A stretch of DNA of 64,000 bases from Austropuccinia psidii (lineage: Eukaryota > Basidiomycota > Pucciniomycetes > Pucciniales > Sphaerophragmiaceae), in assembly GCA_023105745.1 (NCBI GenBank), contig JALGQZ010000013.1:27576105-27640104 (forward strand), given 5' to 3'. The notes under the pieces are model-generated. The model made no database searches. It was not told where the DNA came from and saw only the letters and a program-made list of their open reading frames with translations. The number at the start of each line of letters is the position of its first letter. The first letter of the stretch is position 1. Made by a program: the position numbers and the translations under genes. Of the stretch, positions 3,896-61,180 are shown one piece after another.

Positions 3896-5910
3896 TGTAA
3901 GGTTTGACTATGAAACAATAAGTAAAAATTACTAATATATTACTAATTGTACTATGAATGTCCTTATAAATGAAATAAATAAGATAAAAAATAATTATAA
4001 TAATGAAGAATTATTATAATTATGGCGTAAAAATAATTATATTATTAATAAAATATCATAATATAATTTATATTATAAAATATAATATAATAAAATAAAT
4101 ATATTAATATAAAATAATTAATATATTTAAAAGCACTTTATTATTGTTACAAACAAATAATAAAGGCGTAAAAAATTGTTTTTTTATTAATAAAAAACAA
4201 TTAATAAAAATAATATTACCAATATTAAAGTTATAAATTAATATAAATACTATTTATATTAATTAAAGAATTATTAAAATAATAATAAAGAGAAAAATAT
4301 TATAATAAGAGAAAATAACCTACTTTTAACACTTAATATAATAATTTTGAAATATTTTACGTCAAAAAATATAAATACAACCTATTCAAATTGTATTTCA
4401 AATAAAAATAAAGAGAAATTACTAATATTCTTGATTTTTACGTGGAAATGAGTTTTTAGAGAGGTTTTTTAGCAAAAAATATTAAATAAATGATTTAATC
4501 ACGTCAAAATGGATGATTATAACAAAGTGGTCTTTGGTCTTTACTAATATAATAGTTTCATATATAAAGAATAAATAAATTACCTTTGATTTAATTGATT
4601 TAATGTTTTTGATTCATCTGAGGGGAAAATAGAGTAAAAAGAGCTCTATTTATAGTAAATACCTCCCTCCTAGAGTCCAGCAGGCTTCTAGTAGACGTGT
4701 ACTGATCATATCCACTGGAATTGATCAATATTTTAAGGTTTGGAGATGATTACATCATGATCAAACCATATTGCATGATTTTTACACCATTATTTAGAGT
4801 TATCACTATAACTCTATGTTTGATGACATCAGAGGCTTGGCAGAACCCCAATTTTCGTGGATTTTATTAGTTTTAATCATAAAATAATAGTATCAACCAA
4901 TTCTATCACCTATATGACTGTTAAACTTAAATTAAGGTTACAGTGAGTGATCATAACTGCTCAAATTAAGCTCAAACTTTGATCTTTAATACCTTTTAGC
5001 TTTTACATGCTACAATAAATAAGAGAGTTAATTCTGATATCCTGACATAACCTTATTATTCTGCCAAGAGATTTTCATTACATCATCAAAACTCTAATTT
5101 TGATGATTTTTCTTGTAGCTCATCTTTTCTGTTGAAATTCAATATTTTAAACTTCAAATCATGATTTCAGGGGGTTATACCCTGAATTTAATAATAAAAA
5201 TTACATCATTCTTCACGAATGAACTAGTAAAATCCAACTGTGTACTTTATTTTAAGTTTGGACCACTTTCACGACAAAGTGGTCAACAGCTCTGTTGATT
5301 TTTATCAATATTTCATCATTGGTTTTAACCTTGTTTATAAATGGTAAAATAAAGTTCATATCTGTGTTCTTGCAGTAATTACGTGGTAACCTTTTTTTTG
5401 GTTCATCACTCTATCTTGTATAGTTTAAGAGATATCAGCTATGATCCTTGAATATATGCGTTGACCAAAAAAGTGCATATATTCAGGTTAATTCCTTAAG
5501 TATTAGCTTTGGTAATTAGCTCATTAATTATTTTATGTGTGGACTTTCATGGGGAATCCAATGGTTCAATGTATTTTACATTTTGTTTCATTGGTTCTTG
5601 AAATAAATAAGGATTTATGGTTTTTATAAGGTTTTATTCCTTATAACTCATTAAATATTGGTTTTACAGATATGCCATAAAAATGGTATATGTGTATTTT
5701 ACCATGGGTAATCCAATGGTATAATTTATTTCACATGTTTATTCATTGGTTTTTAAGTTAAACCAAGTTTTGTACCAATTTATGGTATTTTTTGTATTTT
5801 TAATGTGTAATTATTCTAAGTGATTTTAATATAATTATCTTAAAGGTATAGTTGCTCTAAGTAATGTTTGTGACCTTATTGGGTATGTGGTAATATCTCA
5901 AAGGCTCACA
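3896..5910 (-). repeat. Solo LTR, A family, minus orientation, TSD AAGAT
   Basis: It begins TGTAAGGTTTGACTATGAAAC and ends ATCTCAAAGGCTCACA, the reverse complement of the A-element LTR ends. Length is 2015 bp, against 2023 and 2024 bp in element A. AAGAT occurs at 3891-3895 and again at 5911-5915, a perfect 5-bp target duplication. A full element therefore inserted into the Tnp2 pseudogene and was later reduced to one LTR by recombination. The TATA box lies near 4648-4657 on the complement. Confidence 0.93.
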
Positions 5911-7429
5911 AAGATTCTCTAAGTACTCAACCAGGAAATCATAATTTGATTGGTCATGGTGGGATTGTTTTTTATATTTTTGGTGATTGAATGGGGAAGC
6001 CAGCTGTGATTCAAAAAGTTGTTTCATTTCACATGAGATGGATGGGGATTTCATGAGATCGGAAAGGTTGGAACATCAACAGATATGTTGAAGTAAGGTT
6101 TTATCTATATCATCTCTTTCGAGTTGCAAGAAGTGAGTCTTGTTCAGTTCATGTGCTTAATCAATGATAATATATTTCTGTTATTAATTAACGTACATAT
6201 TTTGTTATTTGTTGGAATTGTTGCAAATACTCCAATCAAGTGCTCATAACCCCATGTGGTTGAGGCTTGTGCTGGGCCCCAAAATTGGAAGAGTTCTGGA
6301 AGATGATCAGAAAAATGATGATTGGGTTTACTTTTCTGTTTTGGGAACAGGTGTTGATTGGAAAGGCAAAATCTTTTCCAATGTTCAGCAAATGCAGTCA
6401 CATCATCTATTGAAACAGTCCAACTTGTGGCAATATTTATAGCACTAATCAAATGGAATGTATTCTTGGTTAGCTCCTTTGCAAGTTCTTCTGATTGACC
6501 CATTGTTCTTTGAGTGTGGTGGGAATTGTGTTCATCTAATAAAATATTTTGAATGAGCATTAAAAATGGAATATAGAACTTGTATAACAGAGCCCATTCA
6601 GCAGCTTTTAAACTACCATGAGAGGGGGAACCCATTTTGCAGGTTACTCTTGTCCATGATGAGGGAATTACAGTATCAGATATGATTTGTCAGAGATGCT
6701 CCAGAGCCTCACCCTTGATCTGGTCATCACTCAGTGCACTGATATCTAATTCAGAGGGTATTTTGGAAGTTGGGATTTAATCCATATCAAATGATAGAAT
6801 CTCCTCAGAAACACTAGATGGATGTTGTGTGTGAGGGGGGAGAATTGGGAGGAAATTCTTTTGGGTGGAATTAGTGGGGAGTGATTCATTTATTATCTTT
6901 TCTGTGTCTCTTGTCAGGGAGTGGGCCTCTCTCAATGTGATTTGTTCAAGAGAGCTGTTGGAGGTCATGTAATCTGAGTCTGAACTGTTGGTGTCTTTGG
7001 TTCTCCTGTGGGACCTGAAGTATATTTTTGATTTGGAATCTGGAATGCACAATTTGAAAGCTGCATGATCCTTCAAAATTCCAAGTATTAAATTAAGCAT
7101 TATGTCAATATTTGCCATTCTGTTTGCATCCCAATACAGAAGTTCTTCCAAAATCAAATATTGCACTCCATACTCAGAGAAAATTGCTTGTTTTTTTATT
7201 TATGATTTTGGTATGAGTGTGTGTAGTGAAATCGAGGACCAATTTCTTCAATTTGAGCTTTGTGAATAGTGAAAAAACTACAAAAGTTGCTTCCTGAGTG
7301 AGAAATGAATCCAGTAAGCTAGTGCATGGCAACCACATGCACAAAGGTTGTGAGGATGGCAACACAGATAAAGGATCCTGAAGGATCTGTTGAGGTGGGT
7401 GAAAAATGGTAACCTTGCCATAGCTCTTT
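5911..7429 (-). pseudogene. Tnp2-type transposase, C-terminal half (broken)
   Basis: Tnp2-family transposases move CACTA-like DNA transposons by a DDE cut-and-paste reaction. From high to low coordinates the minus strand encodes three recognisable blocks: YGK..IF with HP (7420-7360); a LLYWDANRMANIDIMLNLILG block (about 7140-7070) matching the family's LPYWDP..xxIDSMHNL segment that carries a catalytic aspartate; and GSPSHGSLKAAEW followed by LPELFQFWGP, EHLIGVFATIPTNNKI (6635-6180), matching the family's SHGSLKADEW and ERLIG.LQ..PTNHK region. Frames change between blocks and stops intervene, so it is a pseudogene. Element A separates it from the N-terminal half at 18112-19093, and the solo LTR at 3896 cuts it on the other side. 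Family assignment is from remembered motifs. Confidence 0.8.
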
Positions 7430-8697
7430 TGTGAGCCTTTGAGATATGACCACATACCCAATAAGGTCACAAGAAAGACTCAGAATAATTATACCTTTAA
7501 GATAATTATACTAAAATTACTTAGAATAATTATACATTAAAAATAATTACTTCAAAAATACAAAAATACCATAAATTGGTACAAAAATTGGTTTAACTTA
7601 AAAACCAATGAATCAAAATGTGAAATAAATTATACCATTGGATTCACCATGGTAAAATACACATATACCATTTTTATGGCATATCTGTAAAGTCAATATT
7701 TAATGAGTTATAAGGAATAATACCTTATAAAAACCATAAATCCTTATTTATTTCAAGAACCAATGAAACAAAATGTAAAATACATTGAACCATTGGATTC
7801 CCCATGAAATTTCACACATAAAACAATTAATGAGCTAATTTTCAATGTTAATACTTAAGGAATTATACTGAATATATGCACTTTTTTGGTCAACGCATAT
7901 ATTCAAGGATCATAGCTTATATCTCTTAAACTATACAAGATAGAGTGATGAACCAAAAATAAAGTTACCACGTAATTACTGTAAGAACACAGATATGAAC
8001 TTTATCTTACAGCTTATAAACAAGGTTAAAACCTATGATGAAATATTGATAAAAATCAACAGAGCTGTTGACCACTTTGTTGTGAAAGTGGTCCAAACTT
8101 AAAATAAAGCACACAGTTGTATTCTACTAGTTCATTCGTGAAGAATGACGTATTTGTATTATTAAATTCAGGGTATAACCCCCTGAAATCATGATTTGAA
8201 GATTAAAATATTGAATTTCGACAGAAAAGATGAGTTACAAGAAAAATCATCAAAATTAGAGTTTTGATTATGTAATGAAAAGCGCTTGGCAGAATAATAC
8301 GGTTTTGTCAGGCTATCAGAATTAACTCTCTGAATTGCTGTAGCGTGTCAAACTTAAAAGTTATTAAAGATCAAAGTTTGAGCTTAAATTGAGCAGTTAT
8401 GATCACCTACTGTAACCTTAAATTAAGTTTAACAGTCATATGAGTGATAAAATTGGTGAATACTATTAGTTTATGAGTAAAACTCATAAAATTCACGAAT
8501 TTTGGGGTTCTTCCAAGCCTCTGATGTCATCAACTTTAGAGTTATAGTGATAACTCTAAATAATGGTGTAATAATCATGCAATATGGTTTGATCATGATG
8601 TAATCATCCCCAAACCTTGAAATATTGATCAATTCCAGTGGATATGATCAGTACACGTCTACTAGAAGCCTGCTGGACTCTAGGAGGGAGGTATTTA

Positions 8698-8708
8698 CTA
8701 TAAATAGA
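8698..8708 (+). promoter_or_regulatory. TATA box of element A 5' LTR
   Basis: The sequence is ACTATAAATAG, followed about 30 nt later by CTCCCCTCAGACGCATC, a plausible transcription start. The motif is conserved in the right LTR (about 17357-17367) and in both solo LTRs on the complement. It defines the U3/R border only by inference. Confidence 0.65.
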
Positions 8709-8765
8709 GCTCTTTTTACTCTATTCTCCCCTCAGACGCATCAAAAACATTAAATCAATTAAATC

Positions 8766-8775
8766 AAAGGTAATT
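8766..8775 (+). other. Putative splice donor in the LTR leader
   Basis: CAAAG|GTAATT lies ~60 nt after the TATA box. Paired with the acceptor at 9959-9961 it would excise U5, the PBS and the AT-rich leader (about 1.2 kb). A comparable donor (CAG|GTAAAG) sits in the B LTR at 61952/61951 and in the D LTR at 20322/20323, which supports a shared leader intron. No ATG lies between the presumed start and this donor. Confidence 0.4.
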
Positions 8776-9033
8776 TCTTTATTCTTTATATATAAAACCA
8801 TTATATTATTAAATACCAAAGACCACCTTGTTGTAATCATCTATTTTGACGTGATTAAATCATTTATTCAATTGTTTTTGTTCAAAATCTCTCTAAAACT
8901 CATTTCCACGTAAAAATCAAGAATATTAGTAATTTTCTTTATTTTTATTGTAAATACAATTTGAAAAGGTTGTATTTATATTTTCTGACGTAAAATATTT
9001 CAAAATTATTATATTAAGTGTTAAAATTAAGTT

Positions 9034-9380
9034 ATTTTCTCTTATTATAATAATTTTCTCTTTATTATTATTTTAATAATTCTTCAATTAATATAAATAG
9101 TATTTATATTAATTTATAACTTTAATATTGGTAATATTATTGTTATTAATTGTTTTTTATTAATAAAAAACAATTCTTTACGCCTTTATTATTTGTTTGT
9201 AACAATAATAAAGTGCCTTTAAAATATATTAATTACTTTATATTAATATATTTATTTTATTATATTATATTTTATAATATAAATTATATTATTATATTTT
9301 ATTAATAATATAATCATTTTTACGCCATAATTATAATAATTCTTTATTATTATAATTATTGTATCTTATTTATTTCATTT
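9034..9380. repeat. Cluster of inverted repeats in the LTR
   Basis: A perfect 28-nt palindrome occupies 9148-9175. It is flanked by a near-palindrome centred on ATAGTATTTAT (about 9090-9120), a stem built from CTTTATTATTTG and CAATAATAAAG (9183-9212), and two long AT-only inverted repeats up to 9380. The arrangement is kept, with some mismatches, in every A-family LTR of the window. Confidence 0.7.
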
Positions 9381-9452
9381 ATAAGGATATTCATAGTACA
9401 ATAAGTAAAATATTAGTAATTTTTACTTATTGTTTCATAGTCAAACCTTACA

Positions 9453-9470
9453 TTTGGGGGCCTGGCCGTG
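9453..9470 (+). promoter_or_regulatory. PBS-like site of element A
   Basis: TTTGGGGGCCTGGCCGTG directly follows the LTR, where minus-strand DNA synthesis should be primed. Nearly the same string follows the 5' LTRs of elements D, C and B. The TGGGGGCC part could pair with a tRNA ending GGCCCCCA, but I cannot name the tRNA. Confidence 0.6.
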
Positions 9471-9961
9471 ATATTTACTTAAAAGACCTTTAAAAAGATT
9501 CTAATTGGGTTTATCCAATAATAAATTATATTTATAATCATAAAATTATATAATAATTTTATATTTTATTGATTTCAAAAGCTATTGAGGCATTTGGAAA
9601 GCAATTGTACTGTCTTACACGTGGTTATTTCACATCCTTAGACTTGCAAGAACTTTCTTTGAGTGACTCTAGTGATTAAAAAAGATATTATATAAATTAA
9701 AAATAACTTTTATTATAATTTAATTTTATAAAGAATCATATTAATTTTTATTTTATTCCTTAAAAATAAAAATAAAATAAAAAATATTAAAAAATATTAA
9801 AAACCAATAAAGAAAGTTATTTTTATTCATTTTTATTCATTTCTTTATTCATTTCAATTTTTTAAAGATATAAAAGCAATTTCTATGTGGAAAATTGCCA
9901 TATCTTGCCAAAAAATAACACTTCTTATAAAAAGACTCATATTTATTTGTCTTTTTTTTAG
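9471..9961 (+). other. AT-rich leader of element A
   Basis: No open frame is present. The stretch ends in a pyrimidine tract and TAG (9959-9961), a good splice acceptor for the following exon. The remainder is low-complexity AT sequence. Confidence 0.5.
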
Positions 9962-10864
9962 TGTTTGAGGATAACCCAACAGAAGATAACCAAGCTACTG
10001 TTGAGAGATTGGTGGAAGAAACTTGTCAAAGTTCTCCAACACCAGTTATCACTAAAAGAAAGAAAGCCAAGAAGTTAGACTTTCCAGGACCCACCATTCA
10101 AGACTCTGAAGGTGAGCACCTCTTTTATAATTGCCATAAAAAGAATTTTTATCCTAAAATACTTTTATATTTTTTATTTTTTTTCCTTAAATTATGACTA
10201 CCAGAAGAGGTTCCCAATACTCCATCCAATCAGATGGAGCTGGACTCAGAAGTAGAACTGATCCCTCAAAAGGGAAAAGAAAGGGAAATATCCCCAGTGG
10301 AACAGAATCCACACAAGGAAGTGCCTTATCCCAAAGGCAAGTCCCAGAAATGCCCATGATATCTGAACCTGAATTGGAGCTAAGTATGAGTAACTCAAAT
10401 AGGTACAAATCACATTCAGAGGGCTCAAATAGACATCTACATGAGCCAGTACAAGCAGTATTACACAGTGTACAAGGACAAAGACTGGGAAATGCTGCCT
10501 CAAATACACCAAGGAGTGATGAACTCCTGGCACATCCTGAAAACGTTCCTCAAACAGGAGGAGATAGTGAAATACTCCAATGGATGGAATCCACTTTCAT
10601 CCAAACCTCAAATCAAAAAAATCAAGGATTACCACACCAAAAAGAGGGAGGCAACCAAGGAAGAAGCCCCAAGCCAACCCACTTCCCCAAGAAGGGAAGA
10701 AGAACAAGAAAAAGAATTGGAGGAAACCATATTCCCCAAGCTACAGGATCCCAAAAATCCAAAAGGATGCCATGGACAATGTTCTCAACATGGCCAGAAC
10801 TTTGATGGAATTCAAAGACAAAGAGGAACAAAGAATGAGACAACCCCATTTCCCAAAGAAATAA
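9962..10864 (+). pseudogene. ORF0 of element A: exon 9962-10111, intron 10112-10204, second part 10205-10864 (broken)
   Basis: Exon 1 is open (FEDNPTEDNQATVERLVEE and onward) and contains no ATG. It ends GAAG|GTGAGC; the intron ends ATGACTACCAG. Joined, the frame continues into the +1 frame relative to gag with EEVPNTPSNQMELD, closely like element B's EVEVTTPSNQMDVD. After three stops near 10358-10390 the frame reopens and carries DWEMLPQIHQGVMNSW, then (after the same indel that shifts gag, at about 10.6-10.7 kb) a basic run and YRIPKIQKDAMDNVLNMART, ending at 10864. The gag start codon lies inside the intron. No family is recognised and the function is unknown. Reality as a gene is inferred from conservation in B, C and D. 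Confidence 0.5.
10112..10204 (+). other. Putative 93-nt intron containing the gag AUG
   Basis: The donor is GAAG|GTGAGC and the acceptor CTACCAG|AAGAGG, preceded by a long pyrimidine tract. The gag start ATG is at 10194-10196, 11 nt from the intron end. Comparable introns occur in B (60450-60511), D (21416-21483) and C (33390-33460). Confidence 0.55.
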
Positions 10865-13800
10865 CCTTGTCTCGTGATGTTGTAAATACTTTAACAGAGC
10901 TTAAAAATAGTATTTTACCTCTTAAAGACATTAAAAATAGTTTATTATCTTTCCAAGAAATAAATAATAGCTTATCATCTTTAACCAAACTTGTTGTACA
11001 AAATAAGAAAGAAATTGATAACATAAAATTTATGATTGAAAATAATAAACCAAAATTATTAATTGACAATAATCAGAAATTAATACAAGGACAACAAGAG
11101 TTGTACAAATACATAAGTGACATCAAAGAAAAAACTTTGACAATCAATTATGATGTGAGTATTGACAATCGTACAGAAAAATTAAACAAATTAAGTATTT
11201 CTATAGAAAAATTTGAAGAAAAGACTTCATCACACCAAAAATTACTTTCGGACCATGTGGAAAAAAGTGATGAAGCAAGAATGCATCTAAAAGATGATAT
11301 TCAAAGTGCAATAAGGCTTATTACTGAAAAAATGGATAAAATGAATGAGGCTAATTTAAATATGCCAAAGTTATCAACTCCATTTTCTCATATAAGAAGC
11401 CCTGTTAAAACAAAAGAGGAATTGACAAATCCTTTCATAACAGACTTGAGTCACCAAGAAAATAACCAAGTCTTAATTAAGGAAGCACCTCAGCTGAAAG
11501 AATGGCCAACATTCACAGGAGAAGGTGAATATGACCATATGTCATTTATTAAAACAATTGACATGTTACAAGAAGACTATGCCATACCAGATGAATTAAT
11601 CACTGCAAGATTTCATTCATTGTTTGGGAAATCTGAAAAAAGATGGTATTATGGCATAAGACAAACAAATGGTAAAAATACCTGGTCTTGGTGGAAACAA
11701 GAAATAATCACCAAATGGGCAAATGATTTCTGGAGGTATAAGATAGAAAATGCATTTGAAAATTCTTTCTTTGACCCAGAGAAAGAGAAACCTTTAACTT
11801 GGTTCTTGGAACAAGTTGAAAGGCTTAATGCACTGTACCCAGAAATGTCACAGAAAATGGTGCACATGAAAATAATTAAGAAATGTGGAGGGGAACTAGA
11901 ACATGCCCTGAGAAGCAGGTGTATAGAACCATGCTCCACAGAAGAGTACATTAATGCACTGGAAGACATAGTGACAAGAACAAAAATTGGCAGGACTTGG
12001 AAGAAATTGGACATTAAAAGCCCAAATAAACCATTTATCAAAAAAGATAAACCAAAAGAATCCTTCAAGCCCAGTACATCCAATAATAATGAGCAAAGGA
12101 AATGCCATCAATGTGGAGGTATTGGACACTTAGCCAATAATTGCCTAAAAAAGGCCAAAATCAATGAAATTGTGGAAACAGAAAACCACAATGACAAAGA
12201 GGAGGAATCTGACTCTGAAAAAGAAACAGAAGAATCAGAAGCTTCTGAAAGTGATGAAATCAATATAATTAATGCAGGAATTAATAACATTGATTTAATT
12301 TATGAAGTACTAGATGTCAACTCAAATTTACCACAAGTTGGAACATCTGACACAAACCTGACAAATGTGCAAGATTCCAGAATGTATAGAACCAAACCTG
12401 CAAGAGGAATGGGATATACAGCTGGAAAATCAAGTATAAGTATTGTTATGGCTGATAACCAAGAAGGAAAAGTTAGCTTAGATACAGGAGCATACTGCAC
12501 CTGTGTTGGCAAAAGTTATTTAAAAACCATTGTCCCAGACTGGCAAGAAAAGCTTATTCCAATACAAGGTGTCAAATTCAGTAGTGAAAGTGAGAGCATG
12601 AAGCCCCTTGGAATAATTGATTTAACACTAATTTTTCCTCACCCTTCACAATGTGTCAGAATTAAAGTGGAATTTGTGGTAATGGAAAACTGTACCAGTA
12701 ATCACTTTATCCTGGGAAATGACTACTTATCAATCTATGGTATAGATATCTCTAACCAGAAGGATAGATATTTTACTATAGGAGACAATAAGAGACAGAA
12801 GTTTGGCTTCTTAAATAACAAAAAACAAGTTACAGTTATTAAGAATGAAGAAAAGATGCCAGAAAAGAATTTTTTTATATCTGAACAACTTAAAGAGGCA
12901 GAATTCAATCAAGAATTAACAGATAGAATGAAAGAAAAATTAATGGACCTCTTATTTAAGTACAAAAATGCCTTTGCAACTGACAAAGAGCCACTAGGTG
13001 CTATAATTGGGCATGAAGTAGACATAATTCTTAAAGTGGAAAAGCCTTACCCACCCTTACTAAGGAGACCAGCTTACCCAGCTAGTCCAAGGGCTAGAGA
13101 AGCCTTAGAAGTACACATTAAAGAATTAATGGACCTTGGAGTATTAAGAAAAGTTGGACATAATGAACAGGTAGAAGTTACTTCACCTGTCATTATAACT
13201 TGGCATAATGGAAAATCAAGGATGGTAGGAGACTTCAGAGCCCTGAACACCTATACCATTCCAGATAGATATCCAATACCTAGAATCCATGAGACATTGA
13301 CCCAATTGTCACAAGCTAAGTTCATTACACCTATGGATTCTCTTAAGGGTTTTCATCAAAATGTCTTAACAGACAATGCCAAGAAACTACTAAGAATAAT
13401 AGTCCATTGTGGAATTTTTGAATACTTAAGAATGCCATTTGGGATAAAAAATGCACCTTCCCATTATCAAAGAATGATGAATACCATATTCCCTGAAGAA
13501 TTATCAGAAGGATGGTTAATTATCTATATTGATGATATCATAGTTTGCTCAGAAACTTGGGAAAATCACCTTACAAGACTAGAAAGGGTACTACAGAAAA
13601 TAGTCCAAGTGAATATGAAAATTTCCTTGAAAAAGTGTCATTTTGCATATAGTGAATTAAAAGCACTAGGACATGTTGTATCTGGCCTTAGTCTAGGCAT
13701 AGACAAAAATAAAGTGGCAGCAGTACTACTTAAACCAATGCCTCAAACCAAAAAAGAAATGCAATAATTTTTAGTATTTGCTGGTTACTATAGACAGAAT

Positions 13801-15969
13801 ATAAAGGACTTTGCAAAAATTGCCAAATCCTTATATAAATTATGTGACCAACAAACATTTTATGAAATGACTGAAGAAAGGGTCAAGGCATATGAAGAAT
13901 TGAAAAATTCACTAACAAATGCCCCATTTCTTCTAATGCCAGATTGGAAACTACCCTTCAAACTATACATTGATGCTTGTGGAGATGGACTAGGTGCTGC
14001 ACTTCACCAGACACAAAATATCAATGATAAACCAGTGGAAGGACCAATTTGTTTTATTTCAAGGCAGATAAAGCCAACAGAAGCAAGGTATGGAGCCAGC
14101 CAAATGGAATGCTTATGATTAGTGTGGGCTTTAGAAAAACTGCATTATTATTTGGATGGCACAGTATTTGATGGAATCACAGACTGTAATGCTGTGAAAT
14201 CACTATTAAATATGAAGACTCCAAATAGAACTATGCTGAGATGGCAAATTGCTATCCAGGAATACAGAGGAAATATGACTATTGTTCATAAATCTGGTAA
14301 TATCCATAAAAATGCAGATGGTCTTAGCAGATGGGCTCTAGCAAATACCCCTGACAATCCAGCATGGGTACCACAGGAAGAGCACCATATAGAAGGAATA
14401 TGTGTTACAGATATTGGCACAGAATTCTTTAACCAAGTTAAAGAAAGCTATAAGATAGACAAAAATTGCCATATCTTAAGCCAACTTCTAATGAAAGACT
14501 GCAAAGACCCATCACTTTCATCAAAACTAGATGAAACATGGAAAAAGGCATATGATGAAGGAAGATTCCACCTCCTTGATGGAATCCTCTACCATAGAAC
14601 AAAACACACATGTGTTATTACCTTAACAGATAGAACACTAATAAACACTATTTTGCATGAGTGTCATGATAGTGTTGCATCTGGACATCTCTCAGAAGAT
14701 AGGACACTAGAGAGGGTGAAAACCTGCTCTTGGTGGCCAAATGGGAAGAAAGATGTTGCAGAGTACTGCCAAACCTGTGACAGATGCCAAAAGGCTAACA
14801 GAGCCACAGGAAAGAAATTTGGAATGATGATCCAAATCCAAGAACCAAAATCCCCATGGGAAATAGTTCATATGGATTGGGTAACAGCATTACCTCCAGG
14901 AGGAGACAGGAGTTATAATGCATGCCTAGTGTTAGTTGACAGGTACAGTAAAACTCCAATGTTCTTACCATGTCACAAAGATGACACAGCTATGGACACA
15001 GCTATAATGATATGGAATAAAGTTATTAGCCATACAGGCTTATTCCAGAATATTATAAGTGACAGAGACCCAAAGTTCACTTCAGCATTATGGACAAATC
15101 TCCATAACTTGTTTGGGACAAACTTATCATTCTCAACAGCTTATCATCCTCAAACTGATGGTTTAGCAGAAAGAATGATACAGACCTTAGAGGACATGAT
15201 CAGAAGATTCTGTGCTTATGGACTAGAAATCAAAGATTCTGATGGCTTTACCCATGATTGGTGTACACTAATACCAGCACTGGAACTGGCATATAAAAAA
15301 TCAATCCATTCTTCTACTGAAAAAACACCAGCAATGCTAGAAAAAGGTTGGAATCCAAGACTTCCTTATGATACCCTCAAAAAGGACTTAGTGGATATAC
15401 ACCCAACAGCAAGCAGCTTTAAAATAATGCTTGACAAGGCAAGACACCATGCAAACAGATGTATGCAAGATTCTTTCAAATATGCAAAAGAATGATGGGA
15501 TAAAAGTCATAAGCCACCTGATTTCAAAATAGGAGACTTGGTTCTAGTGTCAACCCTTAATTTAAACAACATAAAAGGCCCAAAGAAATTGAAAGATTCC
15601 TTTGCAGGACCATTTATGATAAAAGCACTTCATGGACCCAATGCTGTGAAATTGGAACTCACAGGTGAACTAATGAACAAACACCCAACTTTCCCTGTAA
15701 GTCTAATAAAACCTTACAGCTCAAGTGACAAGGAGTTATTTCCACTAAGAAATAAACCCCCACTTGAAATTCCCCCCTTGGAAGAAGGAGAGGAAAAGAA
15801 AATAGTAAAAGTCCTTAAAGAAAGAAGGACAAGAAACAAAAAAGAAAGGGAATACCTTGTAAGGCATAGAAATTCAACTCAAGAAGATGAATGGCTACTT
15901 GAGAAAGATATAACAAATGCTGATAAGCTACTAAGAAGGTTCAGACATGAAAGGAAGCCTGAAAAATAG
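10194..15969 (+). pseudogene. Element A gag-pol polyprotein (one frameshift, three stops)
   Basis: It starts at ATG 10194 (MTTRRGSQYSIQS, matching element B). A one-base frame change near 10.6-10.7 kb moves the frame, which then runs open to 13767. In order: coiled-coil-rich N part; capsid-like region (GEGEYDHMSFIKTIDM and following); CCHC knuckle CHQCGGIGHLANNC (12103-12144); protease DTGA (12481); RT with YIDD at 13525-13536; RNase H ([26 protein letters not shown]); integrase with HHCC finger (ECHD..SGHLSED..CQTCDRC) and DDE residues in [17 protein letters not shown] and LAERMIQ; GPF module; and a chromodomain-like tail (REYLVRHRN..DEWLLEKD). In-frame stops are TAA 13765, TGA 14116 and TGA 15493. 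The domain order PR-RT-RH-INT is Ty3/gypsy. Confidence 0.95.
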
Positions 15970-16069
15970 AAAAGTTAAGCATTATTGAGCTTCAAGACTA
16001 ACAAAGTCTATTGAAGAGGTAGGACAGTGGATGATACCCTAATTACACATATCAGATTGTGGTACAATC

Positions 16070-16087
16070 TTTTTTGGTGGTAGGGAA
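16070..16087 (+). promoter_or_regulatory. Polypurine tract of element A
   Basis: TTTTTTGGTGGTAGGGAA abuts the 3' LTR, the expected plus-strand primer. Element B has the near-identical reverse complement at 54561-54580. Confidence 0.75.
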
Positions 16088-18111
16088 TGTGAGCCTTTGA
16101 GATATGACCACATACCCAATAAGGTCACAAGAAAGACTCAGAATAATCATAACTTTAACATAATTATACTAAAATTACTTAGAATAATTATACATTAAAA
16201 ATAATTACTTCAAAAATACAAAAATACCATAAATTGGTACAAAAATTGGTTTAGCTTAAAAACCAATGAATCAAAATGTGAAATAAATTATACCATTGGA
16301 TTCCCCATGGTAAAATACACATATACCATTTTTATGGCATATCTGTAAAGTCAATATTTAATGGGTTATAAGGAATAATACCTTATAAAAACCATAAATC
16401 CTTATTTATTTCAAGAACCAATGAAACAACATGTAAAATAAATTGTACCATTGGATTCCCCATAACATTTCACACATAAAACAATTAATGAGCTAATTTC
16501 CAATGTTGATACTTAAGGAATTAACCTGAATATATGCACTTTTTTGGTCAACACATATATTCAAGGATCATAGCTAATATCTCCTAAACTATACAAGATA
16601 GAGTGATGAACCAAAAATAAAGTTACCACGTAATTACTGTAAGAACACAGATATGAACTTTATCTTACAACTTATAAACAAGGTTAAAACCTATGATGAA
16701 ATATTGATAAAAATCAACAGAGCTGTTGACCACTTTGTTGTGAAAGTGATCCAAACTTAAAATAAAGCACACAGTTGGATTCTACTAGTTCATTCGTGAA
16801 GAATGACGTAATTTTTACTATTAAATTCAGGGTATAGCCCCCTGAAATCATGATTTGAAGTTTAAAATATTGAATTTTGACAGAAAAGATGAGTTACAAG
16901 AAAAATCATCAAAATTAGAGTTTTGATGATGTAATAAAAGGCTCTTGGCAGCATAATAAGGTTATGTCAGGCTATTAGAATTCACTCTCTGAATTGCTGT
17001 AGCGTGTCAAACTTAAAAGTTATTAAAGATCAAAGTTTGAGCTTAAATTGAGCAGTTATGATCACCTACTGTAACCTTAAATTAAGTTTAACAGTCATAT
17101 GAGTGATACAATTGGTGAATACTATTATTTTATGATTAAAACTCATAAAATCCACGAATTTTGGGGCTCTGCAAAGCCTCTGATGTCATCAACTTTAGAG
17201 TTATAGTGATAACTCTAAATAATGGTGTAATAATGATGCAATATGGTTTGATCATGATGTAATCATCTCCAAACCTTAAAATATTGATCAATTCCAGTGG
17301 ATATGATCAGTTCACGTCTACTAGAAGCCTGCTGGACTCTAGGAGGGAGGTATTTACTATAAATAGAGCTCTTTTTACTCTATTTTCCCCTCAGACGCAT
17401 CAAAAACATTAAATCAATTAAATCAAAGGTAATTTCTTTATTCTTTATATATAAAAACATTATATTATTAAAGACCAAAGACCACCTTGTTGTAATCATC
17501 TATTTTGACGTGATTAAATCATTTATTTAATTGTTTTTGTTCAAAATCTCTCTAAAACTCATTTCCATGTAAAAATCAAGAATATTAGTAATTTTCTTTA
17601 TTTTTATTGTAAATACAATTTGAAAAGGTTGTATTTATATTTTTTGGCGTAAAATATTTCAAAATTATTATATTAAGTGTTAAAAGTAAATTATTTTCTC
17701 TTATTATAATAATTTTCTCTTTATTATTATTTTAATAATTCTTTAATTAATATAAATAGTATTTATATTAATTTATAACTTTAATATTGGTAATATTATT
17801 GTTATTAATTGCTTTTTATTAATAAAAAACAATTTTTTACGCCTTTATTATTTGTTTGTAACAATAATAAAGTGCCTTTAAAATATATTAATTATTTTAT
17901 ATTAATATACTTATTTTATTATATTATATTTTATAATATAAATTATATTATGATATTTTATTAAGAATATAGTCATTTTTACGCCATAATTATAATAATT
18001 CTTTATTATTATAATTATTGTATCTTATTTATTTCATTTATAAGGACATTCATAGTACAATAAGTAAAATATTAGTAATTTTTACTTATTGTTTCATAGT
18101 CAAACCTTACA
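16088..18111 (+). repeat. Element A 3' LTR
   Basis: It is 2024 bp with ends TGTGAGCC...CCTTACA, matching the 5' LTR throughout with scattered substitutions. The two copies differ more than the LTR pair of element C, so A is not a very recent insertion. Confidence 0.94.
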
Positions 18112-19093
18112 TCTTTGAGCTCCTTGGTGAGTGACATTAATAGGTAATTCAATTTAAGGGAAATTGTCTCCTTCATACCAGGGATGATTCCTGAAACATA
18201 GACATTCTCTGGCTTCAATCTTTCACTTGGGGGGATATTAAGACAATTAAGCATGATAGGTCCAATGCTGGCCAACCGGGTTGACTTTCCATGTGCATTA
18301 AACCAGTCCACATAAATGGAGAAGGCCAATGCACCAGAAATGGACATTAATGGGGGCCATTGATATTTCTAGTGCCAGTGAAGCATCTCCAGACCAATAA
18401 ATCCCAGATGTCACATTTGGGGGAACCTTTGGGAATTTGGGATTGTTGATGTTGATGCAGAATTTCCATAATTCCAGCCCACTGGAGAAATCTGGCAAGC
18501 CAATTTTGGAATGGTTGATAAATCAAATGTTTTGTTGGTATAAAGGTTTTCTTCATGTTGGTTGTGTTTTGGGTGCAGGGTTCAAAGGAATTGATGAATT
18601 TGCCTAATGATTGTGTGCAAGGGGATCATGATCATTTGGGTCATTATGGCATTGGCAGTGGTGTTGGTCAGTTGTGACAGATTCATTAAGGCCATTAAGA
18701 AAGAAACATTGAGAGCAACATATATAGTTTCAAATCACTGGCCCAAATTGGAGATGTTCAAATATGGAACTGAGATGTTGAGGTATATGGAATGCAGGAG
18801 TGGGCTGACCACCTGAGCTTGAGATACTTGACTTGATTGGTAGGTTCAGGGTGGGGTTGCAAATGTGTGAAGACCTTTGGGGAATATTATACCTTAATGA
18901 AATAATGGTAGATATTATGATTTCAACGTCTTGTGGGGGAAGGTTTTGATTGCCACTGTATGCTTTCTGTGCAGTTGAATTGACACCTGGTGGTGTGGAG
19001 AATGTGGTTTGGGACAATTGAGAATAATCAGCTGGGAAAATTTGATCCAATAGAATTTTTGCGCACTCAGATCTTGATGCAGAAGTAGGGATG
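18112..19093 (-). pseudogene. Tnp2-type transposase, N-terminal half (broken)
   Basis: The minus strand encodes YQPFQNWLARFLQWAGIMEI (about 18520-18460) and CDIWDLLVW, then SIYVDWFNAHGKSTRLASIG, LNCLNIPPSERLKPENVYVS and GIIPGMKET (18310-18160). These match the signature region of basidiomycete Tnp2 transposases: D-W-F-N-P-H-G-K, C-L-N-L-P, Y-K-P-E-N-M-ylaGIIPGP. The reading resumes beyond element A at 7424. The part before 18556 (18730-19050) is low-complexity and unrecognised. A frame change near 18340 and stops make it a pseudogene. Element D interrupts it at 19093. Confidence 0.82.
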
Positions 19094-20511
19094 TGTCAGC
19101 CTGTGACTCAAAACCAGAGCACAAGCATGACAGCCAGATACCATAAATCAATGGTGTAGCCAACATACCACCAAAAAATGGAGCTGAGCCAAATCAGCTC
19201 AAAAGGTATCAAAGGAAAGACGAATCTTACCCCTTTCCAACTGTAAAAGTCCCGTCACCATAGGACCAAGAATAACAAAGTTATTCCTGCTCAAAGTTGC
19301 TGCTGAGCATAAACCTTAAATTTCACCTCCCATCTTAAATACAGATTAAGAGGCCTAACCCCATCAAATGGGTATTGAAAATGAATCTCTAAGTCAGGGC
19401 TATCCAATGGTCCCAGCCAAACTGAGCTAGCACAAGTATTACTGAAGTTATGGCCAAATTCCGGCCAAATAAGGTTGAATAAAATATTCACCCCTCATCT
19501 AACTTCTACAGCTTTAGTGTGAGATACCTGAAGTAGAATTTTTTGGAAAAAGCCCAAACAGGGCTATCTGATGGTGCCATTCACTTCCCCATATCCCATC
19601 TAGAACAAACGTTATAAGGCAAACAAGTCCAATACAGCTTTTGCCTAACACCATGCATATGTACAAAACTCTTGTACATGGGGTAGCTTTGCCATATAAA
19701 ATGAGGTCCCATTGTGTAGAACACATACAGGGCTACACAATGATACAATTTTGAGGTTGATATCTCAAAAATTGACAACGTTATGGCTGTTTTAAGGTCC
19801 AAATCCCACAGTTTGGCCAATACAGCCTTACCATGGGATAATATCCCATAACCATGATTATGAGGTGTCAAACAGACAAAGAATCTTGTTTTTACTTCAA
19901 TACCTCATAGTTCAGTCAATACTGGGGTCTCATACAGGCTCTGTACAGCATTCTACGCGTCATGCACGTCCAAATCAGGCTGTGTGGTCCCCAGATGAAA
20001 TATTTCACCCTGTATTGGTGAAAACTTCCCAGATGTGGTTTTGAACCACATCTGAGCCCTATAAAGGCTATACAGGCCTTTTGCAAACCACAAGCCTGTT
20101 CTGGAGAGTGAAAGGTCTTCACTTCCTCTACATGGAAAGGTCTAGCAGCCTTTCAACCCCATTTCAGGATAAAAAGGGGGCTTTTCACAGCCAGAAAAGG
20201 TTTCCTAATCCTGCTCTTGAATTCTTACGTACTAAAACTGTCAAAAAAAGTTATAATATTGGAAAATAATCATGTATACTTCAAATTTAAGTATTGGAGT
20301 CTTTATTATTGTGAGCCAACAGGTAAAGCTGCACCCAGGGCTTTCAACAGCGCTCACCACCACTATTCCACAATAGTAAAGCCCTCTTATTTTATTTATA
20401 AACCCTTATTATCATTAAAAACCTTTATTCTAAGACTTTATCACTGTGTCACAGTCATATTTGAAGTTGTAAAGAGCTTAATTACTGTTTCATCATAGAC
20501 TCAGCGTGACA
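19094..20511 (+). repeat. Element D 5' LTR
   Basis: It is 1418 bp and runs TGTCAGCCTGTGACTC...AGACTCAGCGTGACA. A TATA-like GGATAAAAAGG lies near 20168, and a donor-like ACAG|GTAAAG at 20322/20323. The LTR ends and several internal blocks match the element C LTR, so C and D belong to related families. Confidence 0.92.
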
Positions 20512-21115: not shown

Positions 21116-22184
21116 TGGAAGAAAACTACATACCACTAGGAGCCCAGTTACAGGCCAATACACCAGTGACACCCTCAGAGACAGAGGGCAGCAAGAGAAA
21201 AGGAAAGAGGCACAGTGAAGGCCTTATCACAGCAAAGAATTGGACACAAATTGCCACCCAGAGGAGTAGAAAACAAAGAAAATCTGCTTCAATACAAGGT
21301 AAACCAACCTTAACAGCTTGTACAGGGAATATTACCATAATTAACCCAGTTGTCACCTTTAAAGGTAAATTTCGCAAATCAGCAGACACCAAATTTGTAC
21401 AAGGCACAGTCAAAGGTAAATACCCTAAAAATATAAAGTTTTTGACTGCTTGCAAACACTGATATGTCACCTGCATACTTCAGAGACCTTGCCTTCCAAA
21501 GGAACCAACCAGAGGACAGATAAGGCTTATCCAGAAACAGAAGGCCTTGAAGAGGACACCTTGGACACAGTGGTGGATGGCAAAACACTGCTGAAAATCA
21601 TACCCACACTTCCATTCACATTCCAATTCAGCAGGAACATCAAACCAGAGGACTGGAAAGATATGGATCAAGTTCTTCAGTTCCACCAACTCCTCAAAGA
21701 TTTATTTCAATGGAGAATGGACAACAAGAGGTTCAACCTGGCATCTCACTGGGCAGAACTTGGAGAAAGTTTCCAGAAGATCTGTCTCAAAGAGATAGAC
21801 TTCAAAGACCTTATGATAATCACCAAAGGCTGTAATCCCACCAGGCAGTTCAGACTCCTGGAGGTGAGGGCAAAAAGGATAAGGGAGAATCAAGCCACTA
21901 TCCAAGCTATAGAAGAACAACTGACCCAGACAGGGCACATTCAGATTCCTTCAGGCTCACAAGGAGAAGGCCAAATAAGCTCTCCAGTGGCTTCACACCA
22001 TTCAGAAACCAACAGATCAGTGGCCAAGAGTCACCATTCTCCACACTCCCAGGAGGAATCCAGGAGAAGACAAGGACACAAGGGAAAGAATGGGACCTCT
22101 TTTCACCAAAGGCAGAGAGAGTCAGACCCAATTATCCAGAAACTGTTGAAATTGGTGAAAGAAGTACAAAAGCACCAGAAGTAG
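21116..22184 (+). CDS. ORF0 of element D: exon 21116-21415, intron 21416-21483, exon 21484-22184 (open)
   Basis: Exon 1 is open from TGGAAG (EENYIPLGAQLQANTPV onward), is lysine/arginine-rich and has no ATG. All three possible donors (21298, 21364, 21415; all G|GTAAA) are in the same phase. Joined to 21484 (TACTTCAG|AGACC) the frame reads ETLPSKGTNQRTDKAYPETE and stays open to the stop at 22184, giving about 335 codons. Features: tryptophan- and hydrophobic-rich segment (EDWKDMDQVLQFHQLLKDLF and MDNKRFNLASHWAELGESF), a helical stretch (FRLLEVRAKRIRENQATIQ), a serine/histidine and basic linker, and a C-terminal amphipathic helix (DPIIQKLLKLVKEVQKHQK). Element C has a clear homologue in the same +1 frame. 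The gag frame over the same bases is dead after 13 codons. The function is unknown; a start codon might be made at the splice junction. This is an inferred gene. Confidence 0.55.
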
Positions 22185-30388: not shown

Positions 30389-31886
30389 TGTCAGCCTGTG
30401 ACTCAAAATAGAGCACCAGCATGACATCCAACATGCCATAAGTAATGGTATGAGGAATATTGGACAAATATAGCCAATACAAGTAAATTATAAAGAGGAA
30501 ACCTCCTCAAAGATAATAAGAAAGGACAAAGATATGCCCTATCAAAGATAAGACCAAATAAGCAAAAACTCTTATTCTGGCCTCTAATCTAACTTATGTA
30601 TATTTAATGGGAACCCCACCAGAATTGTTATTTTTCTTAAAGCTCACATAGAGAGCTACACAATGATATCATCCATGTTGTTGTAACACCACTACAACTG
30701 GAGATACCATATAACCTTATTTTCAAAACCAAGTCCCCCTGAAAGTCAAAGAGGGCTTGTACAAAACTGTACAAAAGTATAACCAAATTAAAGATCTCAA
30801 CAAGAGCTTTAATTTGAGACACCTTAGACCTCTGTATCTCTTAAATTGACTGAGGGATCTTGGTTCAAAGGTTTAATAACCAAAATACAGATATTCTGAA
30901 AACAAGAAAATAAACAAACCCCTGTATTTTTGGCATACACTCATACAACTGTACAGTGTAATATACCAAACTGTAGAGCTAATCAAGCCCTACAAAACTG
31001 TATCATCAGAATACTGATATCTTCCAAATTGAAGAAGATATCTAGCATGGAAGTTTTTGAAGCCTCATACTGATGTACAAAATTACATCCAAAAACTTGA
31101 AACCCTTATAACTTTTGCTATTTGCAAGAAGGGTAAACATGAAGCATACCAAATTGAAGAGCTCATTAAGCCCTTCAATTCTGTGCTCTTGGTTTCTTGA
31201 TATCTCAAAAACTGACTGAGATATCCTGGTTGGAAGTATTTTGACCAATACTGGCCTGTACCAAACCTGTACCAACCAGTACTGGCTTGATACTTAAAAT
31301 AATGGTTGTTTAAAGCTTAAACCCGCCCAGAATGACTAATATTAGTCATCCAGACACTCTGGACACGTCACAATGGTGCTGACGTGGCCTGTGAAGAGTT
31401 TTTTCACCCTGTATTGATCCAGAATGATCATTTGTGGTCCAAAAACCACAATTCTGACTATGCTGACGTCAGAATTGATGGTACAGAACCACAACCCAGC
31501 CTCCAGAGTGAAAATTTTCACTCTGTAGACGTGTGAAGAGCCTACTAGTCTTTCACAGTCCTCAGAGGAGATAAAAGCAGGTCTTTCCTCACTGGAAAAG
31601 ACTCATCTTATCATGAATTAACATCCTTACGTAGTAAAACTGTCTTATACCAGTAGTACTCTTAGGATTATATTGATATAATTAAAATAATTAATTATTG
31701 TAGTGTTTCTTTACAGTCAAAGATATTAGAGCATTGCAACCCAGGTCCTCAATAGACTCATCACCACTGTTACCACATAGCAGTAGGACCTGAAGATTTC
31801 ATTTATTATTTATTTTTTGTGTGTCACAGTCATAGTGCTAGCTTGTATTTACTATTTTTAAGCTACTACATAGACTCACCCTGACA
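30389..31886 (+). repeat. Element C 5' LTR
   Basis: It runs TGTCAGCCTGTGACTC...AGACTCACCCTGACA. A TATA-like GATAAAAGCAGG lies near 31568. Several CTGTAC(A/C) words occur (30768, 30949, 31255-31271). The terminal ~170 bp parallels the element D LTR. Confidence 0.95.
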
Positions 31887-36236: not shown

Positions 36237-36248
36237 TGAGCTTTTTTT

Positions 36249-36260
36249 GGAGGGAGGGTA
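36249..36260 (+). promoter_or_regulatory. Polypurine tract of element C
   Basis: GGAGGGAGGGTA lies directly before the 3' LTR and after the stop codon of the gag-protease frame. Confidence 0.75.
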
Positions 36261-37758: not shown

Positions 37759-37763
37759 ATTCC

Positions 37764-57600: not shown

Positions 57601-60463
57601 AAGCTGGTCTTCTTAATAGTGGCGGATAAGGCCTTTCCACATTAAGCATAATGTCCACCTCATGGCCTTTTATAGCCCCGAGTGGCTCATTATCAGAGGC
57701 AAAGGCTTCTCTATATTGAAATAAAACCTCAATAAGTTCTTCCTTCATTTCTGGTGTTAATTCAGGACTAATTTGTGCTTCACTTAGCTGATCTGACGCA
57801 AATTTTTCTTTTTTAACATTCTTTACTTGTTGAAAGACAGTAATTTCTTTTCTTTCTAGAGAAAAAGCAAATTTTTGCCTTTTATTTTCCCCTATAGTGA
57901 AATACCTGTCCTTATGATTGTTAATATCAATACCATAGATATTGAGATAATCATTTCCAAGTATAAAGTGTTGTGAAGTACAATTGTTCATAACAACAAA
58001 TTCAGCTTTCAATCTTGTACTCCCTGCTGGATGAGGAAATATTATTGCTGCTTCAAATATACCCAAAGGGTGCATGTTCTGGCTAGCACTTCTGAATTTT
58101 ACACCTTCAACTGGCATCAACTTGTCTTGCCAATTGGTATAAATTTTGTCAAGATAATTATTTCCAACACAAGTGCAAAATGCACCTGAGTCAAGATGTA
58201 TCTTGGCTTCTGTGTTATTTATCACAATATTAGTGATACAGGATGACCCAGATGTATAACCTTTACCTCTGGCAGGTTTGGTTTTTTGCATCTTGGCATC
58301 TTGCACATGTATGACATCCATACATTCATCACTATACTGTGGTAAGTGAGTATGTACTTCAGTGACCTCAAAAGAAACATTAATATTTTCTATACCAAGT
58401 TGTTCTGATGCTTCTTCTTCTTCTGAAGGCTCAGAATCACTTTCATGTAAAGATACATCAGTTTCTTTTGTGTCTTCCACTTTTTCAATATTTATCTCAT
58501 TGACTCTTGTCTTTTTGGGACAAGTGTTTGCCAAATGAGATGTACTTCCACATTTATGACATTTCAAAGGAGGTCTGTCATGTGGTTTATTTGGTTTTGA
58601 AATTGGTTTCCCACTAGTCTTGTTGTCTATTGGGGGTTTATACCAATTTCTTCCAATTTTTGTTCTAGTAGTGATATCCTCCATAGCATTGATATAATCC
58701 TCTGTAGAGCAAGGCTCAATACATCTGCTTCTTATAGAATGCTCAAGGTCACCACCACACTTTCTTAATATCCTTTTATGTACCATTGGTTCAGACATAT
58801 CAGGATGAAGGGCAGTTAATCTGTCCTTCTGTTTAAGAAACCAAGTCATGGGCCTGTCCCTCTCAATATTAAAAATGGCTTCTTCAAAAGAATTTTCCAT
58901 TCTAAATCTCCAGGAATTATTTTCCCATTTGAAAATAACTTGTTCTTTCCACCAAGGCCAAGAATGTTTACCATGGTCTTGTCTCATTTTATAATACCAT
59001 TTCTTTGCTGATTTGGTAAATAATGAGTGTAATCTGGCACTTATATATTCATATGGTATGTTAAAGTCTTCTTTAAACATATCAATTGTTTTCATAAATT
59101 CCATATGATTATATTCTCCTTAACCATCGAAGGTTGGCCATTCCTCTAATCTTGGAATGTCCTTATAATTGCAAGCAGTTTCCACATCCTGACTTGAAAT
59201 TGTATGATGTAAATCATTATTCAAGTTAAGGACATTTCTGTCAAGAATTGGTGTGGATTTCCTTGGCAATTCATTTTTTAGTGATATATTATTAATACTT
59301 GACTGAATGTCTTCTTTCAATTCAAGTCTTGCTTTATCACTTTTTTCCAATTGTTCTTGAAAAAGAGCTACATTGTGACCAGTTGAATTTTCCAAGTTTT
59401 GTACTTGTATTTTCAATTCTTTTAACTTTCCAGTTATAAAAGAAATTGAATGTTTATCTGGTTGATTGAGTAAGGTAACTTTAAACTCAAGTCTTTCACA
59501 AATTTGCGTCAAAGACAAAATATTTGCCTTATTAACATTTTCAAGGCCAATTATGGTCTTTTGTTGGTCTTTTACTTGTAGTATCTCATTACCCAACTTT
59601 TGTTGGACATGATCAAATGCTTTAAATTTTGCCATAATTTCTTTATTACAAGATTCAAAGTAAGTTACAAGTTTTACAAGATCTACTTCTTTGGAAAGGA
59701 TTGGTTCAATATTTCCTCCTCCTTGTTTTTGAATTCCATCAAAGTTCTTGCCATATTGAACACATTGTCCATGGCTGTCTTTTCCTTCTTTGGGATTCTG
59801 TAATTCTGAGGGTAAGGTTTGTTCCACTTGGGCTTTGCCTTTCCCTTTGCCTTTTGCTTGCCCTTCTGGTTGGTCTTTGGGGCTTGCTTGGGCTTGTTTG
59901 GCACTTGTTGAGGCGGATTTTTTCTGGTGGATGCTTGAGGAGCTTCCACTGGGCTGTTGTCCTTGCCTTGAGCCAATTTGTTCTTCTGATCCTCTGACAA
60001 CATGCTTTGGTTTTTCAACCAAGCTTTGATCTGTTGGACTTGTCCTTTGACAGACATTGGTGTCCAACCCAGCAGAAGATCTTCTGTCTTTTCTGGCCCC
60101 ATGAACTTCTTCACTTGAAGATAAGAGTTCATGGTGCCTATCCAAAGACTTGGAAGGAGTTCCCACTCTTGTTGTTTTGACGCCAGGAACCAGTTTTTCC
60201 ATTGGGATTGATAAATTTCCACAGCTGCCTGTTGGAAATGGTTCAGGTCTAACAGCAATAGCAGTTATGTCAGCTTCTGGACTCTCAATAAGAGGTTCAA
60301 AGGTGCTGGCTAACCTTTGGGAACTAGTGGAAGTTCTGGCATCTTCCATTTGTGCCTCTCCTCTGGGAGGACATTCTTGCCTTTTGGATTTGTGGCTGGA
60401 ATGTCCTGGTCCACATCCATTTGATTGGATGGAGTAGTTACTTCCACTTCTAGTAGGAGTCAT
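54697..60463 (-). pseudogene. Element B gag-pol polyprotein (two stops, one frameshift)
   Basis: It starts at ATG 60463 (MTPTRSGSNYSIQSNG). The first 447 codons run open to a TAA at 59122-59120 (GAA in A), in the same frame as the next 953 codons, which stop at 56245-56243 (again GAA to TAA). A ~2-nt loss near 55625 shifts the remainder. Order: disordered S/Q/K-rich N part; coiled coils; capsid-like region; [18 protein letters not shown] (about 58563-58522); protease DSGA (about 58195); RT with YIDD (about 57155); RNase H; integrase; GPF module; chromodomain-like [17 protein letters not shown]. In the integrase finger the second His is Asn (SGNLSED where A has SGHLSED). DDE residues are mostly retained; the second lies at the frameshift. 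Confidence 0.94.
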
Positions 60464-60628
60464 TTCACGTCAATTTTAATAAAAAATAGAGTAAAATTGA
60501 ATTGAATTCACCTGCAGGACCTTTAAAGGGCTCTTTGGTTATCAAACCCCTTGGTGCTGGACTGGTTTGAATTTCAATACTGGACTCTAAGGCTTCAGAG
60601 TCTGAAGGATTTTCTCTGATGGAAGACA
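59683..60628 (-). pseudogene. ORF0 of element B: exon 60628-60512, intron 60511-60450, exon 60449-59683
   Basis: Exon 1 (SSIRENPSDSEALESSIEIQ onward) is open, follows TTTTCTCTAG and has no ATG. The donor is CTGCAG|GTGAAT. The 62-nt intron ends ATGACTCCTACTAG, containing the gag ATG. Joined, the +1 frame gives EVEVTTPSNQMDVDQDIPAT, meets two stops (about 60330 and 60270), then is open for ~190 codons. The open part has a tryptophan-rich segment (QSQWKNWFLASKQQEWELLP, LLLGWTPMSVKGQVQQIKAW), a proline/lysine-rich basic linker and a C-terminal helix (TAMDNVFNMARTLMEFKNKE). The last is nearly identical in element A's +1 frame. The gag frame over the same bases is S/G/Q-rich and disordered-looking. 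The function is unknown. Confidence 0.55.
60450..60511 (-). other. Putative 62-nt intron containing the gag AUG of element B
   Basis: On the minus strand the donor is CTGCAG|GTGAAT and the acceptor TACTAG|AAGTGG, with a TTGAC-type branch point upstream. ATG at 60463 is 14 nt from the intron end. Confidence 0.55.
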
Positions 60629-61162: not shown

Positions 61163-61180
61163 CACGGACAGGCCCCCAAA
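61163..61180 (-). promoter_or_regulatory. PBS-like site of element B
   Basis: The minus strand reads TTTGGGGGCCTGTCCGTG next to the 5' LTR, one base different from element A's site. Confidence 0.6.

Follow-up and report, generated by a model that had tools for sequence, protein, structure and literature searches.

A probable spliced gene beneath gag in Ty3-type LTR retrotransposons of Austropuccinia psidii

Introduction

Can one transcript of a fungal LTR retrotransposon yield two proteins from the same bases, depending on whether the start codon of gag is kept or spliced out? The question was raised by a 64,000-nt stretch of the Austropuccinia psidii genome (the window; GC 34.8%, no N) in which four elements, A to D, carry an intron-like segment around the gag ATG. 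The original prediction held that removal of this intron joins an ATG-less exon to a gene, ORF0, hidden in the +1 frame under gag, with spliced RNA making ORF0 and unspliced RNA making Gag-Pol. The accessible text of PMC8063080 describes the A. psidii genome as just over 1 Gb, with Gypsy elements in the majority.

We consider it very likely that ORF0 lies beneath the N-terminal region of gag, in the +1 frame, and that one transcript of these Ty3-type LTR elements serves for two proteins. The core of the proposed switch stands on intron-less genomic copies of a related family and on constraint in both frames; it had to be amended by a second intron, by the broken copy of element A in the window and by element C, which lacks ORF0.

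Results

Elements and sequence sets

All four elements are flanked by LTRs (Table 1). Element A also shows the domain order of Ty3/gypsy elements, with RVT_1 (Pfam) in 10441-13764 followed by RNase H, H2C2 and rve in 14125-15492, that is, reverse transcriptase and RNase H before integrase. Two further stretches of LTR length match the LTR of A in reverse orientation (3896-5912, 93%; 50274-52211, 85%) and are probably solo LTRs. A repeated block at 28003-28611 consists of a 300-nt pair spaced 309 nt, and several repeat copies of about 250-300 nt each lie at 32144-32983, upstream of the gag of C.

Genome searches were run on an assembly of 1,015,390,075 bases in 84 contigs. The alignment of A contains 40 copies (the window copy and 39 fetched ones, the best matches to A), and that of B contains 31 rows representing 30 copies, the window copy having been entered twice. 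A related family, E, was fetched from the genome and compared with families A and B of the window. Annotated proteins matched in three sets of 424, 902 and 523, which may overlap and of which the best 120 each were listed.

Table 1. Positions of the elements and of the ORF0 and gag features in the window.
Element	Feature	Position	Strand	Remarks
A	element	7428-18112	+	LTRs of 2025 nt with 96.8% identity
A	proposed leader intron 0	9663..9961	+	preceded by a putative exon 0 with terminal ...TTTGA (9662)
A	ORF0 exon 1	9962..10111	+	begins TG; ATG with upstream A; 2 indels in 40 copies
A	intron 1	10112..10204	+	holds gag ATG; GT 40/40, AG 37/40 copies
A	gag start codon	10194..10196	+	inside intron 1; ATG in 40/40 copies
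A	ORF0 exon 2	10205..10336	+	overlaps gag; no indel in 40 copies
A	intron 2	10337..10402	+	66 nt, GC-AG; coding in gag frame; holds +1-frame stops
A	ORF0 exon 3	10403..10864	+	overlaps gag; both frames shift near 10670
B	element (LTRs)	52384-54090 and 61176-62904	-	LTRs ~1.73 kb, 95.4% identical
B	ORF0 exon 1	60512..60628	-	0 indels in 31 rows; in annotated P0003, P0008
B	intron 1	60450..60511	-	62 nt; gag ATG at 60463; GT 31/31, AG 30/31 rows
B	ORF0 exon 2	60315..60449	-	from copy alignment and E-B divergence signal
B	intron 2	60249..60314	-	66 nt; carries both +1-frame stops; gag reads through it
B	ORF0 exon 3 to stop	59683..60248	-	codon signal and gag-frame stop depletion
B	gag ORF	59120..60463	-	447 aa, overlaps ORF0
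C	element	30389-37761		nested between LTRs of D; LTRs 1501 nt, 99.67% identical
C	intron 1	33390-33460		71 nt, GT-AG
D	element (LTRs)	19094-20511 and 43940-45352		LTR identity 87.5%
D	putative ORF0 exon 1	21116..21415	+	open, begins TG, same phase
D	intron 1	21416..21483	+	68 nt, holds gag ATG
D	+1-frame ORF under gag	21484..22184	+	open for 232 codons; second intron unneeded

An intron that holds the gag start codon

The predicted intron was recovered with the lengths claimed for it: intron 1 is of the GT-AG type and measures 93 nt in A, 62 nt in B, 68 nt in D and 71 nt in C. The gag ATG, which had been placed in the last 11-20 nt, does sit 11 (A), 14 (B), 20 (D) and 20 (C) nt before the 3' end of the intron, and in B it is kept in 31/31 rows. 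The exon behind the acceptor is indeed ATG-less, opening directly with TG in A, B, C and D as well as in E. Exon 1 (150 nt in A, 117 nt in B, 300 nt in D) continues into the +1 frame, and its phase is the same in the three elements for which this had been proposed.

A second intron wholly within gag

In A and B the +1 frame is not open throughout. Stops at 10357, 10381 and 10387 in A and at 60312 and 60267 in B lie about 50 codons past the exon 1-2 joint, just ahead of the conserved domain, so that an ORF0 with one intron is not open in either element. These stops fall inside an intron that had been overlooked, 63-66 nt long (63 nt in E) and wholly within gag, in families A, B and E. Where a single intron was expected, the three families have two across the region of ORF0 and gag, with a probable third in the leader. 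The donor of intron 2 in A (10337-10402) is GC in 37/40 copies and GT in one, with an AG acceptor in 40/40; B and E have a GT donor, and in B both GT and AG are present in 31/31 rows. When conceptually spliced, ORF0 of B is open up to its terminal stop in 24/30 copies, and 15/30 copies have no stop in gag before codon 447.

The annotated B-type protein P0003 contains exons 1 and 2 but leaves out the stop-bearing stretch. We take such models as a hint only, because others of the set mix the frames differently. The hypothetical proteins P0017, P0043 and P0248 of A. psidii MF-1 carry gag-frame and ORF0-frame pieces variously fused; proteins like these are retrotransposon pieces. This accounts for many hypothetical proteins of A. 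psidii, which it would be wrong to treat as effectors or as genes of the host.

A start codon probably formed across a leader intron

An upstream exon ending in A would give an in-frame ORF0 ATG in A, B, D and E. This ATG is probably formed across a leader intron, by joining ...TTTGA to the TG... of exon 1. The sequence TTTGA/GT is found at one aligned place of the leader in the window copy of A and 38 of the 39 fetched A copies, in 26/30 B copies (the window copy of B not among them) and in 17/17 E copies. The length of the putative leader intron could be measured in 36/40 A, 15/17 E and 19/31 B rows, the pattern used having missed the rest. We saw no copy without it, the intron-less copies of E described below included. 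The donor might alternatively lie within the LTR, at CATA/GTAC; ten of the listed A copies have CAGA at that place.

Genomic copies from which one or both introns are missing

The genome was searched with P0093; the best 150 of 295 matches were listed, and 150 of 41,036 first-look candidates were scored. Among the matches listed, the top five span residues 1-228 without a stop, while the other 145 start at residues 32-43, around the end of intron 2. We aligned the five copies (L078-L082) with 12 intron-containing copies of E (L083-L094). The identical 63 nt of intron 2 are absent, exactly, from all five. At intron 1, 65 nt with the gag ATG are absent, again exactly, from L078, L080 and L081; 66 nt are gone from L082 (one base extra), and L079 retains the intron. 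All five copies retain the leader, which in some copies of the family (L078, L082 and L083) has an additional stretch with a repeat of the primer-site-like motif at its end.

That E copies in the genome have lost both introns exactly is the strongest evidence for ORF0 splicing, and it is independent of annotation. They look like products of spliced RNA that was then reverse transcribed, which would be the simplest account. Over exons 2-3 the nearest intron-containing copies are L092 and L093 for L079, L090 for L080, L083 for L081 and L091 for L078, and L082 is equally near several; because these nearest copies differ, more than one event is likely to lie behind the intron-less copies.

Constraint on ORF0

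We sorted the columns of the A alignment with a variant common to at least three of the 40 copies by position class. The counts for classes 0/1/2, which are small except in the last two long parts, were 5/2/2 in exon 1, 4/0/2 in exon 2 (computed on 10205-10335), 6/1/2 and 2/13/1 in exon 3 before and after 10666 (class 0 being the third position of the +1 frame before it, class 1 that of the next frame after it), 0/0/3 in intron 2 (class 2 being the third position of gag there) and 42/10/7 in gag beyond; exon 2 shows an excess at ORF0 third positions. Singletons were nearly patternless in exons 1 and 2 and in gag. Those of exon 3 leaned to the coding pattern (33/13/17 and 12/27/20), which would not be expected of post-insertion changes and counts against the model. 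The same 40 copies have 220 indels in the leader and 62 in intron 1, but 2 in exon 1 and none in exon 2 or intron 2. In exon 1 the shared variants fell on ORF0 codon positions 1/2/3 as 2/2/5 in A, 1/2/4 in B and 1/2/9 in E, and within family E those of exon 3 gave 29/2/5.

Divergence between E and B concentrated at ORF0 third positions. Comparing 12 E copies with the 30 B rows (window copy twice) under 5000 permutations, we obtained values of 0.473/0.287/0.198 at ORF0 positions 3/1/2 of exon 3, with 0/5000 permutations as large, and of 0.394/0.305/0.189 in exon 2 (p=0.04). For the final part of exon 3 by itself significance was not reached (p=0.07), and neither intron 2 nor the gag-only part gave an ORF0-type signal in this E-B comparison. 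Identities were 29/73 (A-B), 34/75 (A-E) and 59/91 (B-E) for ORF0, against 17/70, 25/72 and 34/92 in the gag frame, values hardly above those of the third frame (4/6, 24/73 and 33/85). Judged by these identities, ORF0 is the better conserved protein between families; it would therefore carry most of the constraint, with gag chiefly kept open.

Constraint on gag

The stops expected in the gag frame given the residues of ORF0 were estimated from 5000 shuffles. Exon 3 has no gag-frame stop where 7.2 were expected in E and 8.8 in B, and 0/5000 shuffles were free of stops. Openness was weaker in A (P=0.12 before 10666 and 0.04 after it) and was not significant in exon 2 of any family (P=0.20-0.24); in D the gag frame contains 3 stops, where 10.5 would be expected (P=0.0004). 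The reverse test gave P=0.004 in E and P=0.011 in B, and was not significant in A (0.29 and 0.50) or for exon 2. From the tests in both directions, both frames therefore look read, and coding, in E and B. That ORF0 seems to carry most of the constraint suggests that the N-terminus of gag was overprinted on it. ORF0 is under constraint in A, B and E, and gag is held open in B, E and partly D; ORF0 of A, B and E and the openness of the D gag frame go beyond chance.

Elements C and D

Element C, which shares the intron, does not support ORF0: its +1 frame has 3 stops where 3.4 would fall by chance (P=0.55), and exon 1 holds another. It is young by its LTRs and lacks ORF0, which we count against the ORF0 model. 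Its ORF has a zinc knuckle and no reverse transcriptase or integrase in Pfam searches, so that it has probably been moved by other elements. C looks like a young, non-autonomous, gag-bearing element inside the old element D.

Of the 31 annotated D-type models that reach the end of exon 1, 14 have the exon 1-2 joint under a strict motif, one reads through the joint and 16 are unclassified; the joint motif occurs in 25 D-type models overall. No homology between the D-type and the A/B/E-type ORF0 was found with hhalign, with full or trimmed sets (probability at most 2.4). The peptide similarities first quoted as linking the elements are present in the translations, but HQLLKDLF/MDNKRF turned out to be shared by D and C, and a relation of D to A, B and E could not be demonstrated.

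Discussion

A proposed splicing choice between Gag and ORF0

In the model we propose, unspliced RNA would keep the gag ATG and serve both as the message for Gag (and Pol) and as the genome of the element. Splicing would take out intron 1, and the gag ATG along with it; in A, B and E intron 2 would go as well, removing the +1-frame stops. The spliced RNA would be translated as ORF0 from the ATG probably formed across the leader intron (A + TG). We infer splicing in A, B and D, and ORF0 translation in every family, from sequence.

What the ORF0 product might do

Pfam holds no family for the ORF0 proteins of B, E and D and gave weak matches below the cut-off for a piece of the A protein, and the B/E profile had no match among PDB sequences. 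Structure prediction, put forward with the original prediction as a check, was run and gave a partial answer. In the B-type model, which is weak, helices span residues 76-131, 136-154, 158-169 and 226-257; its start is of low confidence, it has a lysine-rich linker, and its mean pLDDT is 66.6 and its pTM 0.28. The D-type model is poor.

The likeliest single role, to which we would give something like a third of the total weight, may be the handling of unspliced RNA in the nucleus, the task that CERV has in the worm element Cer1. We propose it because the element must export RNA that retains working introns.

A role as a second particle protein or nucleic-acid-binding protein, nucleocapsid-like or a chaperone, whose dose relative to Gag would be set by splicing, is tentative in its turn and about as likely as export. 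It would suit the lysine-rich linker, the helices and an overlap with the N-terminus of gag, a place of structural proteins; speaking mildly against it, ORF0 has no zinc knuckle or known domain and a spliced message fits a regulator. Building on the export role, a wider scenario is slightly more doubtful still: a fungal element would have evolved its own regulator of unspliced RNA, apart from retroviruses and Cer1, as a multi-exon gene later overprinted by the N-terminal part of Gag, and one splicing choice would both remove the Gag start and assemble the ATG of the regulator.

We rate lower, and as unlikely, the idea that ORF0 limits the element by copy-number control or counters host silencing. 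The very high copy number would be in keeping with such a protein, and other elements encode comparable ones, such as the copy-number-control protein p22 of Ty1.

The frame break in A

Window A and its 39 closest relatives carry a frame break near 10670, where the 40 aligned copies have 423-429 nt and P0282, an A-type annotated protein standing for 44 sequences, implies 447; the missing stretch is 23 nt (424 vs 447). The ORF0 domain of these copies reads on into gag, as it does in the annotated P0248 and P0252. Splicing in this subfamily might accordingly yield a working ORF0-Gag fusion in place of two proteins, a reading favoured by the presence of the break in all 40 copies. We find it improbable: the 40 copies are biased toward sharing the break because they are the best matches to A, and past it (10666-10863) the shared variants still mark a separate ORF0 frame in 13 of 16 cases. 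Recombination between copies is one possible source of that signal.

That ORF0 is an artefact of annotation noise and chance openness, and the intron-less copies chance deletions, is very hard to credit even with many annotated models combining the frames differently and with A and C broken in the window, since two introns are lost exactly at GT and AG in several copies and three families carry codon signals. We return to the reading of ORF0 as a spliced gene for the comparisons below.

Comparison with known systems

Spliced overlapping genes are usually seen as a mark of complex retroviruses; here they appear in fungal LTR elements. Among the open-licence PubMed Central papers listed by our searches, no title or abstract mentions fungal LTR elements with a +1-frame gene beneath gag. 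The three genome searches gave 3,969, 3,743 and 41,036 first-look candidates. So many candidate copies allow one to trace, copy by copy, how overlapping frames and a splicing-controlled choice of gene evolve.

Plant Ogre elements carry an extra ORF before gag and separate from it, and the plant element Retrosat2 reportedly also has an ORF0 before gag. The likeness lies in an extra protein gene on the 5' side of gag. Unlike those separate ORFs, ORF0 is predicted to be assembled from exons and overlaps gag with exons 2 and 3, so it is not a separate upstream ORF. Regulators of the HIV Rev type are small proteins made from multiply spliced RNA and overlapping frames, with exons elsewhere in the genome. 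ORF0 would resemble them in being a small protein from multiply spliced RNA and overlapping frames; Pfam and PDB sequences gave no sequence relation between the two.

In barley BARE1, as far as the accessible text goes, a spliced RNA serves for Gag only (PMC3735527). There too the splicing of an LTR-element RNA selects between protein products, but it truncates Gag early and creates no new gene. The available part of that report also states that DNA copies of the spliced RNA could not be amplified, whereas such copies appear to be present in family E.

The arrangement had been thought to lack a described precedent, which no longer holds. The part of PMC10309623 available to us describes Cer1, a Ty3/gypsy element of C. 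elegans whose spliced mRNA encodes the protein CERV, with one exon read in a different frame, and CERV gets the unspliced RNA out of the nucleus. Set against that account, ORF0 would share with CERV an LTR element, a multi-exon spliced mRNA, an exon off the polyprotein frame and an unspliced RNA that must retain its introns. The codon constraint and the E copies likewise point to a protein from spliced RNA off the gag frame. The same text places exons 1-3 and 5 of CERV in the polyprotein frame and a large part of it near the 3' LTR, whereas ORF0 has its exons 2 and 3 beneath gag, read in the +1 frame, with the gag ATG inside an intron; the function of CERV was tested experimentally and that of ORF0 is predicted. 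With CERV as the closest precedent, ORF0 may best be regarded as a spliced gene under gag in fungal elements, of a design comparable to that of CERV.
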